Part shown: positions 34,298 through 55,541 of the stretch, one piece after another
Position numbering within the stretch: position 1 is the stretch's first letter
Layout: every line of letters begins with the position of its first letter
NCBI RefSeq assembly: GCF_029338255.1
Contig: NZ_CP119787.1
Span: 868,001 to 932,000 of the forward strand
DNA: 64,000 nucleotides
Reading direction: 5' to 3'
Source of the DNA: Haloarcula halobia
GTDB lineage: Archaea > Halobacteriota > Halobacteria > Halobacteriales > Haloarculaceae
Translations under genes and position numbers: made by a program
Notes under the pieces: model-generated
The model's database searches: none
What the model was told of the DNA's origin: nothing
The model's input: only the letters and a program-made list of their open reading frames with translations

Positions 34298-34376
34298 GAC
34301 GCCACCGCCAGGGCTCGAACGAGTCGAGACGGTCACTCGCTTCGCTCGTGCTGCGACTCGCCGGCTCGAACCCTGG
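34298..34376 (-). repeat. Duplicated tRNA-Asn 3' end with hairpin element
   Basis: Positions 34298-34320 repeat exactly, over 23 bp, the 3' end of tRNA-Asn (34444-34466), starting at the G before the T-loop and running through the last base and beyond. Facing it at 34364-34376 is an inverted near-copy of the T-loop/T-stem (11 of 13). Between them lies a 43-nt core containing, in tRNA direction, GAGCGAAGCGAG. Sequence further downstream of both copies is also similar (CGGTACTC.GAG.CGACGCTCC), so the duplication unit is about 146 bp. The same design occurs beside tRNA-Arg (39868-39940). Confidence 0.7.
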
Positions 34377-39723: not shown

Positions 39724-39796
39724 GTCCGGATAGGGTAGTGGACTATCCTCTTGGCTTGCGGAGCCAGGGACCGGAGTTCAAATCTCCGTCCGGACG
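39724..39796 (+). tRNA. tRNA-Arg (anticodon GCG)
   Basis: The 73 nt fold into a cloverleaf: acceptor GTCCGGA/TCCGGAC, a D-arm GGGT/ATCC, an anticodon stem TTGGC/GCCAG around loop TTGCGGA, and T-arm CGGAG/CTCCG with loop TTCAAAT. The discriminator is G and no CCA is encoded. The 3' 23 nt are repeated at 39918-39940. Confidence 0.92.
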
Positions 39797-39867
39797 CTAC
39801 ATTTCCGCGAACAACTCCGCGAGCGACTGCCGTGTCGCTCGCTCTCGAGAGCGGTTATGCGGAGCCA

Positions 39868-39940
39868 CGGAGATTTGAGCAGACGAGGAACGCGCAGCGA
39901 AGCGAGCATTTCTCGGCGAGTTCAAATCTCCGTCCGGACG
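39868..39940 (+). repeat. Duplicated tRNA-Arg 3' end with hairpin element
   Basis: Positions 39918-39940 repeat exactly the last 23 nt of tRNA-Arg (39774-39796), 144 bp downstream. Positions 39868-39880 are an inverted copy of the T-loop and T-stem (12 of 13 pairs with 39920-39932). The 39-nt core between them contains GCAGCGAAGCGAG and resembles the core beside tRNA-Asn. The direct copy starts at the same point of the tRNA (the G before the T-loop, plus two chance matches) as in the Asn case. A further palindrome, CACGCTCGCTTCGCTCGCGTG, lies at 39969-39989. Confidence 0.7.
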
Positions 39941-39946
39941 TTCGAT

Positions 39947-40264
39947 TCACTCACGCCCGGACGTGCTCCACGCTCGCTTCGCTCGCGTGGGCTGGACCCA
40001 CCCGGACGCGGTGACGCCCCGGACGAACCGCTCTGCGTACCAGGCCGTCAGCACGACGGGGAACAGCAACACGGCGTCGAAGGGGGGCGTCCCCTCGACG
40101 CGCCCGACGGTCACCATGACGAACACCGCGACGATGGCCACGACCAGCAGCGTCGCGACGCGGTGGGCCGTCCCCAGGTCGAGTCCCGCCAGCGCGGCGC
40201 GAGCCGCGACGGCGAGTCCCGCCAACAACAGTACCACCGGCCCGTACCGCCCCCGTGTATTCAT
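39947..40264 (-). CDS. Small three-helix membrane protein
   Basis: The product is 105 aa from ATG 40264. Three hydrophobic segments are seen: GPVVLLLAGLAVAARAALAG, VATLLVVAIVAVFVMVTVG and FDAVLLFPVVLTAWYAERF. The C-terminal tail (PTRAKRAWSTSGRE) is encoded by the palindrome at 39969-39989 and looks unlike the rest, so the natural C-terminus may have been replaced by the repeat. The family is not recognised. It converges with tRNA-Arg. Confidence 0.65.
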   Translation of the reverse strand: MNTRGRYGPVVLLLAGLAVAARAALAGLDLGTAHRVATLLVVAIVAVFVMVTVGRVEGTPPFDAVLLFPVVLTAWYAERFVRGVTASGWVQPTRAKRAWSTSGRE

Positions 40265-53322: not shown

Positions 53323-54441
53323 TCAGACTGTCACGACGAGGTCGGCGGGCGGTTCCCCCGGCAGGTCGTCCCGGTCGTGGGCGGCCTCGAAGTCGGGCTC
53401 GGGCCCCTTCGGGACGATGCGCTTGGGGCTGACGTCCGGGTGGGTCGTGTAGTAGTGTTCCTTGATGTGGGTCATGTTCACCGTCTCCGCCACGCCGGGC
53501 TCGCGGCTCGCTTCGTCTTCGCGGGTCGTCTCTCCCCGCTCAGACGTATCGAGGTCGCTTTGCGACCTCGCACTCCCCGTTCGCTCGCCCGTCGTCCCCT
53601 CACTCCGTTCGGCGACGCCCGTCTGATAGAGGTCGCGAAGGTACGGCCAGAGGTTGTCGTACTCCCGGATGAGTTTGTGGTTGCACATGAAGTGCGTGTG
53701 GTACACCTCGTCGAAGCGCACGAGCGTGGTGAACATACAGATGTCCGCCTCGGTCAGACGGTCGCCGGCGAGGTACCGCTGGTCCTCGAGCACCGAGTCC
53801 CAGTGGTCCAGCGCGTCGAACAGCTCCTCGACGGCGCTGTCGTAGGCGGCCTGCGAGTTGGCGAACCCACAGCGATAGACGCCGTTGTTGATCGGTTCGT
53901 AGATGCGCTCGATGACGTCGTCGACCTCGTCCCGGTACCCCGCCGGATACAGGTCGACGTCGTTGTCGGCGACCGCGTCGAACTCGGTGTCGAGCATCCG
54001 GAGGATCTCTTTCGACTCGTTGTTGACGATGGTCTCCTCTTTCGTGTCCCAGAGGACCGGGACGGTCACGCGACACGTGGCGTCGGGGTCGGCTTTCACG
54101 TACAGTTCCCGGAGGTAGTCAGAGCCGTGCAGCGAGTCCTCGGTACAGCCCGCTTTCTCGGGGGTGAACTGCCAGCCGTCCTCGGCCCGGTAGGGGTCGA
54201 CGATGTCGACGCTGATGGCGTCCTCAAGCCCCTTCAGTTTCCGGACCAGCAGCGTCCGGTGAGCCCACGGACAGGCCAGCGAGACGTACAGGTGATAGCG
54301 CCCCGGCTCCGGCTGGAACCGGGCGTCGGGGTCGTCGCGGACCCAGTTCCGGAAGGTCGTGTCTTGCCGATCGAACTCGCCGTCCTCGTTCGTGCTCTCG
54401 TAGGCGTCGGTGCGCCACTCGCCGTCGACGAGCATGTTCAT
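53323..54441 (-). CDS. Glutathionyl-hydroquinone reductase/GST-like protein with internal insert
   Basis: The product is 372 aa from ATG 54441. The N-terminal thioredoxin fold holds the active-site Cys in SLACPWAHRTLLVRKLKG. Blocks of the Xi-class GST family follow: VPVLWDTKEETIVNNESKEI, ERIYEPINNGVYRCGFANSQ, LTEADICMFTTLVRFDEVYH and YDNLWPYLRDLYQT. Haloarchaea use gamma-glutamylcysteine rather than glutathione, so that thiol may be the cofactor. After LYQTGVAE comes a low-complexity insert of about 41 residues, then PGVAETVNMTHIKEHYYTTH resumes the family sequence. The insert is DNA-repeat derived. Confidence 0.85.
   Translation of the reverse strand: MNMLVDGEWRTDAYESTNEDGEFDRQDTTFRNWVRDDPDARFQPEPGRYHLYVSLACPWAHRTLLVRKLKGLEDAISVDIVDPYRAEDGWQFTPEKAGCTEDSLHGSDYLRELYVKADPDATCRVTVPVLWDTKEETIVNNESKEILRMLDTEFDAVADNDVDLYPAGYRDEVDDVIERIYEPINNGVYRCGFANSQAAYDSAVEELFDALDHWDSVLEDQRYLAGDRLTEADICMFTTLVRFDEVYHTHFMCNHKLIREYDNLWPYLRDLYQTGVAERSEGTTGERTGSARSQSDLDTSERGETTREDEASREPGVAETVNMTHIKEHYYTTHPDVSPKRIVPKGPEPDFEAAHDRDDLPGEPPADLVVTV
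53485..53619. repeat. Palindromic in-frame insert inside the GST-like gene
   Basis: The codons for GVAE occur on both sides (53485-53496 and 53608-53619, 123 bp apart), so the insert of 41 codons keeps frame. It contains a perfect 9-bp stem with a TTT loop (53550-53570) and words like CGCTTCGTCTTCGCGGG, recalling cores next to the tRNA repeats. The two GVAE copies differ at wobble bases, so the event is not very recent or the match is partly chance. Confidence 0.55.
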
Positions 54442-55160: not shown

Positions 55161-55541
55161 CCACGCTTCGACAGCCAATTCTTACGTCGTCGGATGTCCT
55201 CGCGCCGCGTAGCGGCGCTGCGGACACAGCGTGTCGGCTCTGTGGCCACGTCATTCGGTTGCGGGTCGTCGGCCCGCAACCGGCCCCCTACAAGAACGTG
55301 GGAAACCTGCCACTCGCTCACGGCGCTTTGCGCCGTTCGCTTGCGGGGATACTCCGTGAACTCGCTGTTCGCGACCGGTGAAACGGATTGCCTCGCTCGC
55401 CGTATGCTCGTTGGGGCATTTCCGCTACTCGGTCATGTTGCCCCGCTCGAGTGGTGATCCGTGCTGCTTACGGGGCGCGAATCTTCCATGGAGCTCTCCC
55501 TGTGTTTCGGGGGGCTAATCGTGGTGCTCTCGTCGCTTTCG
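55161..55541. repeat. Intergenic region with three perfect palindromes
   Basis: No gene is seen. Three strong hairpins follow one another: GCGCCGC/GCGGCGC with loop GTA at 55202-55218; GGTTGCGGG/CCCGCAACC at 55257-55281; ACGGCGC/GCGCCGT with loop TTT at 55320-55336. The TTT-looped stem matches the style of the one in the GST-like gene. The first could terminate rpl10e, but there is no T-run, and the series suggests a repeat element. Confidence 0.55.

Follow-up and report, generated by a model that had tools for sequence, protein, structure and literature searches.

An in-frame insert in a haloarchaeal GST-like gene is probably a copy of a dispersed two-hairpin repeat

How does an enzyme gene come to carry, in frame and between two copies of the same four-residue word, a segment that is missing from its sister gene? 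This question is raised by a GST-like gene of Haloarcula halobia, encoding 372 aa on the minus strand (53323..54441 of the window, by which we mean the whole stretch of 64,000 nt that was analysed, positions 868,001 to 932,000 of contig NZ_CP119787.1). Both GST domains score above the Pfam cut-off in the host protein (N domain, PF13409, 49.0 bits; C domain, PF13410, 54.6 bits), and glutathionyl hydroquinone reductases and yqjG are among its nearest solved relatives. The in-frame insert spans 41 codons (residues 275-315; 53497..53619, minus strand). Its left GVAE (codons 275-278; 53619-53608, minus strand) is at the same time the left arm of a hairpin, outer hairpin 1, and the right GVAE (codons 316-319; 53496-53485, minus strand) belongs to the host; 37 codons (279-315) separate the two words, giving a net gain of 41 codons when one GVAE is counted. 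The nearest solved homologue, 6gzf_A, aligns to residues 1-274 and 316-370 and lacks the insert, and so does the product of the sister gene (L031/L242), which is 93% identical to the GST of the window. The codon positions and the homologues bear out a previous sequence-only reading of this DNA, according to which 41 extra codons lie between two GVAE copies with the frame kept. That reading had also placed the peptide at the surface, after a helix. An AlphaFold model of the GST (22 sequences), with an only moderate mean pLDDT of 64.4, agrees with this placement: pLDDT is below 50 over residues 281-315, a stretch flanked by helices 264-273 and 317-331, as would be expected of a loop following a C-terminal helix.

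On the sense (minus) strand, the insert is made of hairpins. Outer hairpin 1 (GGCGTCGCC-GA-ACGGAGT-GA-GGGGACGAC; 53591..53619) holds 7/9 of its arm pairs in the window; its left arm copies the host word GGCGTCGCC, whose inverse forms the right arm, so that the insert may have arisen once and then travelled, or several times over. Nested further in is a second two-hairpin copy (53517..53571), composed of inner hairpin 1 (53550..53570), with a perfect 9-bp stem and the 3-nt sense-strand loop AAA (TTT on the plus strand), and inner hairpin 2 (53521..53539), whose stem is GCGGG/CCCGC where most copies of A2 have ACGGG/CCCGT. The perfect TTT-loop hairpin pointed out in the sequence-only reading is real, but it makes up one half of a bigger, two-hairpin unit and is not itself the repeat. 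When up to 3 mismatches were allowed, the hairpin at 53550-53570 was found at 1 place in the window and at 0 in 100 shuffles. The RNA fold of the sense strand was 4.1 SD better than that of dinucleotide shuffles, as compared with just 1.7 SD for the opposite strand, and the window contained 5 GA-NCGNAGN-GA units, where 100 shuffles averaged 1.5 and reached 5 at most. The 126-nt insert as a whole was discarded as the repeat unit, being unique in its own genome; its parts alone recur.

A search with the corresponding insert of Natrinema limicola over 146 genomes of the order matched 91 of them, the best matches being mostly to the middle part of the insert and outside GST genes. Aligned copies define a unit of about 55-63 nt, in which two neighbouring hairpins occur on one strand: GCGAGGCGC-GA-CCGAAGG-GA-GCGCCTCG, a short linker, and then GC-GA-ACGGG-GA-loop-GA-CCCGT-GA-GC. 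The short stems are split by GA dinucleotides placed as tandem GA/GA mismatches, which would be expected to form sheared pairs. The six GA positions were invariant in 20/20 copies, and the first loop was GNA in 15/20. The structure covaries: across 20 interspersed copies, none of them from GST, 97.7% of cells were paired, and 8 pairs and 33 cells had changed on both sides, whereas slid versions of the alignment gave 0-1 such changes. No covariation beyond shuffling was seen between species in the hairpin-1 arms of the GST inserts (82/99 pairs, as compared with a mean of 81.5 for shuffled partners). Rfam gave 0 matches at the gathering score for the 12 loci submitted, including L001 and L047. 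From copies that included no GST sequence, a covariance model of 62 positions, R1, was built.

In the Haloarcula halobia genome, R1 found 44 places at E <=1 and 34 at E <0.01, and a reversed-pattern control found 4 places, as compared with 23 for the true pattern; this control and the 100-shuffle test argue against simple chance as the source of the hairpin and its pattern. What recurs in the genome, where the sequence-only reading had proposed to search for the hairpin and its flanking words, is a structured, dispersed repeat. Under stricter filters, R1 occurred in 72/79 genomes of the order, with 0-63 copies each (median 9; zero in 7). A draw of genomes from the phylum was positive in 13/13 members of the order and in 1/67 others (G218, best E 3.8e-4), the latter being an imperfect control since base composition may differ between the order and outside groups. 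Near-identical cores are dispersed to unrelated sites: within one genome, as seen for G093 and G077, the identity of cores reaches 98% with flanks at background level. In some other pairs the flanks are shared too, the copies there being part of a larger repeat.

Several other arrangements were noted around these copies. In five loci of G093 and G077 (L226, L228, L229, L114 and L221), the core sits within a larger repeat, with TTTTGCCAG on its left and GCAAAAGGTGGG on its right. At positions 271584 and 947823 of the Haloarcula halobia genome (L003 and L008), another palindrome, GGAATCGCC...GAGGTCGC-NNN-GCGACCTC...GGCGATTCC, has the inner hairpin in common, and at 621854-622103 of that genome (L006, L013 and L014) similar GA-rich words are arrayed in tandem, with a spacing of 81 nt between matches. 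The window itself holds two weak copies of the element, both on the minus strand, one of 23.0 bits at 39934..39992, downstream of tRNA-Arg (39724-39797), and one of 23.9 bits at 55316..55365. Mini-hairpin words of the type GAGCGAAGCGA occur on the minus strand at 34336-34346 and 39973-39983, near tRNA-Met/tRNA-Asn and tRNA-Arg, respectively, as expected from the tRNA-linked CGCTTCG-type words reported earlier. Linkage to tRNAs was rejected as a general rule, as no tRNA called by ARAGORN abuts the copies at L132 or L136; each of these copies lies right after a sequence resembling a tRNA 3' half, in which ARAGORN calls no tRNA. A single 76-nt query (L120:1500-1575) matched no phage and just 3 plasmid records, and a phage or plasmid origin was set aside.

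R1 also recognizes the inserts of GST genes. Over the whole unit it scored 48.2 bits in L125, 42.4 in L049, 40.5 in L032, 39.6 in L126 and 30.4 in L045, and it matched nested second copies inside the inserts of L047 (71.2 bits), L039 (69.0 bits) and the window (42.0 bits; E 3.2e-5 in its own genome). The outer copy of the window (53572-53618) scored a poor 16.1 bits; it has drifted. We consider it likely that the GST insert is a copy of the dispersed haloarchaeal two-hairpin repeat carrying a second copy nested within it, a likelihood that we attach jointly to the explanation developed below as a whole. The proposal of a repeat-derived, protein-tolerated insert akin to the Rickettsia palindromic elements (RPEs) is thereby supported, with the repeat dispersed, in frame in seven other called genes, and found across the order.

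The 30 best copies of the Haloarcula halobia genome comprised 8 in frame within genes, 12 at or near gene 3' ends and 10 intergenic ones, with a complete strand bias, as all 20 gene-associated copies were sense and 0 antisense copies lay in or at a gene (p 1.9e-6); the gene calls come from an ad hoc score, and these place and strand counts are accordingly provisional. In 6/12 of the copies at gene 3' ends, a TAG stop shares its G with the first model base. The 8 in-frame copies fall in eight different called genes, encoding the GST of the window, a DUF255/thioredoxin protein (L148), a P-type ATPase (L157), a SufB/D-like protein (L161), a MenB-like member of the enoyl-CoA hydratase family (L163), a Dna2-like nuclease-helicase (L165), argininosuccinate synthase, at its C-tail (L167), and ScpA, at its N-end (L153).

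Comparison between related genomes revealed occupied and empty sites. Indels were confirmed in two genes. In the DUF255 gene, 57 nt of the Haloarcula halobia genome, with a possible 6-nt repeat, are missing from the sister genome G156; the MenB-like gene differs between members of the genus, an 18-codon form being present in 10/15 readable same-genus genes. In a peptidase M29 gene, a 60-nt unit with TAG as its first bases occupies, in G231, the place at which G235, which has no unit, continues with GFEA and a stop. The second hairpin of this G231 unit is decayed, and identity beyond the first 12 nt downstream is low; the junction was set from the 12 nt over which the two sequences resume exactly and from the ends that they encode, as MAFFT misplaced the gap, and no target-site duplication is visible at this G231/G235 site. 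A further gene, encoding an aldo/keto reductase (L144, L273-L276), is followed by different copies after its stop in four species, and in G153 by none, the gene ending there with TAA.

The strongest rival to a spreading repeat is an RNA element under selection, whose fold would act in the transcript, through 3'-end protection, processing or translation control, and whose intragenic copies would be an accidental spread. We hold this as a tentative alternative. It would fit the uniformly sense orientation, the 12/30 copies whose start lies at a gene 3' end or close to it, with the shared TAG in 6, and the conservation of the unit as a single-strand fold, and also the presence in sister species of copies after the same two genes, with differing stems and number. 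However, copies occur in tandem and nested, their number is very unequal between genomes, and a copy can be missing after the same gene (L272 and L276), and tandem, nested, unequal or absent copies are more in keeping with a repeat that spreads than with a control element that is fixed. The two explanations are compatible, and a spreading repeat is the most likely.

It is also conceivable, though rather unlikely, that such units grow in place at short inverted words, through template switching or slippage during replication, with no mobile unit involved. The existence of tandem copies is in line with such growth, as is outer hairpin 1 of the GST, with one arm repeating a host word and the other its inverse. 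It would also fit a pair formed by a copy after a stop (L168) and a second copy (L269), which have equal 8-nt arms and one 11-nt loop in opposite orientations (GAACGGAGTGA in one, the reverse complement in the other), as though a flip had taken place between the arms. On the other hand, the presence at unrelated sites of cores with up to 98% identity requires copying between sites.

Could the insert be an ordinary, lineage-specific loop of the enzyme? Among the best 80 of 170 relatives from one scan, 11 had extra residues (7 to 42) at the same point and 69 had none, 3 of the 69 having been assigned by eye rather than by script; the alignment to uninterrupted homologues suggested by the sequence-only reading yielded 69/80. 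Ends like GVAERSEGTPDERTGS or RESGVAE are shared, wholly or partly, by 8/11 of the extended homologues (L032, L035, L039, L041, L045, L047, L049 and L079), and the segments of the remaining 3/11 (L048, L069 and L081) do not clearly resemble the element. The GST site is patchily occupied also within the genus, where 30/32 genomes have a GST match and the site is readable in 29, of which 3 carry the insert (Haloarcula halobia, G235 and G231) and 26 are insert-free. The expectation that the segment would be absent from other genera did not fully hold, as homologues there carry a similar segment with conserved residues; yet its presence is scattered and its conservation lies at the nucleotide level, so that these homologues do not make it an ordinary conserved loop.

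This is reflected in the codon positions. Across 10 GST inserts, differences at positions 1, 2 and 3 amounted to 0.163, 0.119 and 0.253, as compared with 0.071, 0.052 and 0.336 in the flank, so that positions 1 and 2 vary 2.3-fold more in the insert and position 3 varies less. In 10 MenB-like inserts the values were 0.151, 0.140 and 0.195, as compared with 0.091, 0.026 and 0.329 in the left flank and 0.011, 0.011 and 0.228 in the right. With positions 1 and 2 nearly as variable as position 3, it is the nucleic acid, rather than the peptide, that is kept; the hold on the peptide is thus loose and that on the nucleotides tighter.

We therefore find it improbable that the insert is an ancestral functional GST insertion, with its peptide under selection and with many losses since. 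The inserts of Haloarculaceae and Natrialbaceae do share protein-level ends, GVAERSEGTPDERTGS...RESGVAE. However, a gene tree of the 81 proteins with the insert cut out, whose bootstrap is not fully settled, calls for 12 changes to account for 12 carriers, and starred, well-supported branches force at least 7 of these changes, and the codon positions and the same DNA unit in unrelated genes speak against this as well. Loss by recombination between the GVAE repeats has left no footprint in the 69 empty homologues, as 0/69 have the one-residue-shorter spacing that, in our reading, a GVAE-GVAE deletion should produce. Equally poor is the standing of a non-autonomous MITE or REP-like element moved in trans by an IS200/IS605 Y1 transposase, for although the hairpin-rich single-strand structure, the exceptional stability of G-C mini-hairpins with GNA loops as DNA (described in PMC4686876) and an empty site pointing to insertion without clear duplication would suit it, Y1 counts do not correlate with copy number (Spearman 0.02), Y1 matches are missing from six genomes that hold 23-50 copies, five genomes have Y1 and zero copies, and such a transposase is thus not required. 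An autonomous Y1 partner, the mark of an IS200/IS605 MITE, did not go with the copies across genomes, and the comparison of Y1 transposases with copy number across genomes brought up no enzyme moving the element.

The explanation that we favour, with good though not full confidence, is a spreading two-hairpin repeat whose fold is kept and whose peptide is a tolerated passenger. Copies have spread to many unrelated places of the genome and would persist where harm is small. Such places would be gene 3' ends, with the copy in sense orientation and its leading TAG able to act as a stop, and surface loops, in which an in-frame copy would have its sense strand read as a hydrophilic Ser/Glu/Arg/Asp/Gly peptide. 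What stays conserved would be the nucleic-acid fold. Copies may still be moving or being copied now, by a process that probably recognizes the fold, and the peptide is presumably translated and tolerated. Against this explanation, no movement was observed and no enzyme came to light; against it also stand the poor R1 score of the outer hairpins in the window and the GST hairpin-1 arms, which lack covariation; the flanking GVAE repeat (9-12 nt), which is placed unlike a classical target-site duplication; and the segments of L048, L069 and L081, unlike the element. Selection alone, moreover, could yield the sense bias inside coding sequence. A bolder proposal, which we regard as speculative and doubtful, is that of a strand-specific hairpin element of haloarchaea that spreads by itself and is adapted to transcribed genes, with a translatable sense strand, a leading TAG that can end the gene and a capacity to insert into its own copies; gene ends and surface loops would then be rewritten again and again, order-wide, by one element, possibly via an RNA or single-strand intermediate and new machinery.

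Among known systems, the closest in kind are the protein-tolerated palindromic repeats, described as known mainly from Rickettsia and, for the RPE, as about 150 bp long (PMC10969869). By description the haloarchaeal element resembles the RPE as a kind: both are short palindromic repeats found in frame in unrelated genes (8/30 copies here) and elsewhere, with a peptide that is apparently tolerated. Unlike the RPE, the element is archaeal and order-wide, has a core of about 60 nt (R1, 62 positions) with a GA/GA two-hairpin structure, and starts with TAG in many copies. Prokaryotic MITEs, as portrayed in the same source, are small, multicopy and dispersed, and can fuse in frame with genes (PMC10969869). 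The element shares these properties with them, including those reported for Halobacterium and Haloquadratum; it differs in having two side-by-side hairpins and no whole-unit terminal inverted repeats, consistent target-site duplication or partner transposase, and is set apart from published haloarchaeal MITEs by description. REP/RAYT systems are hairpin or MITE-like repeats as well; unlike in these, the copy number of the haloarchaeal element is uncorrelated with Y1 transposase. Enterobacterial RU repeats are described as having intragenic ORFs (PMC2759123), and the likeness to both, hairpin or MITE-like repeats of which some have open frames, is again one of description. Coding palindromes are also described within nematomorph mitochondrial genes (PMC6649704); these, too, are inverted repeats within protein genes, but they are mitochondrial, perfect and up to 284 bp long. 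Searches of open-licence full texts brought up no protein-tolerated repeat in haloarchaea, consistent with the earlier remark that none had been defined there.

The finding thus describes a differently built protein-tolerated repeat family across a whole archaeal order, with up to 63 copies per genome, sitting inside genes such as those of SufB/D-like proteins, argininosuccinate synthase and a P-type ATPase. The family accounts for the GAGCGAAGCGA-like words and for Ser/Glu/Arg-rich in-frame insertions in these sequences, and it offers a countable natural record of repeats turning into protein segments and stop codons. The order has cultivable members, in which movement, RNA folding and tolerance are testable. 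The finding shows how archaeal proteins may acquire new segments from dispersed repeats.
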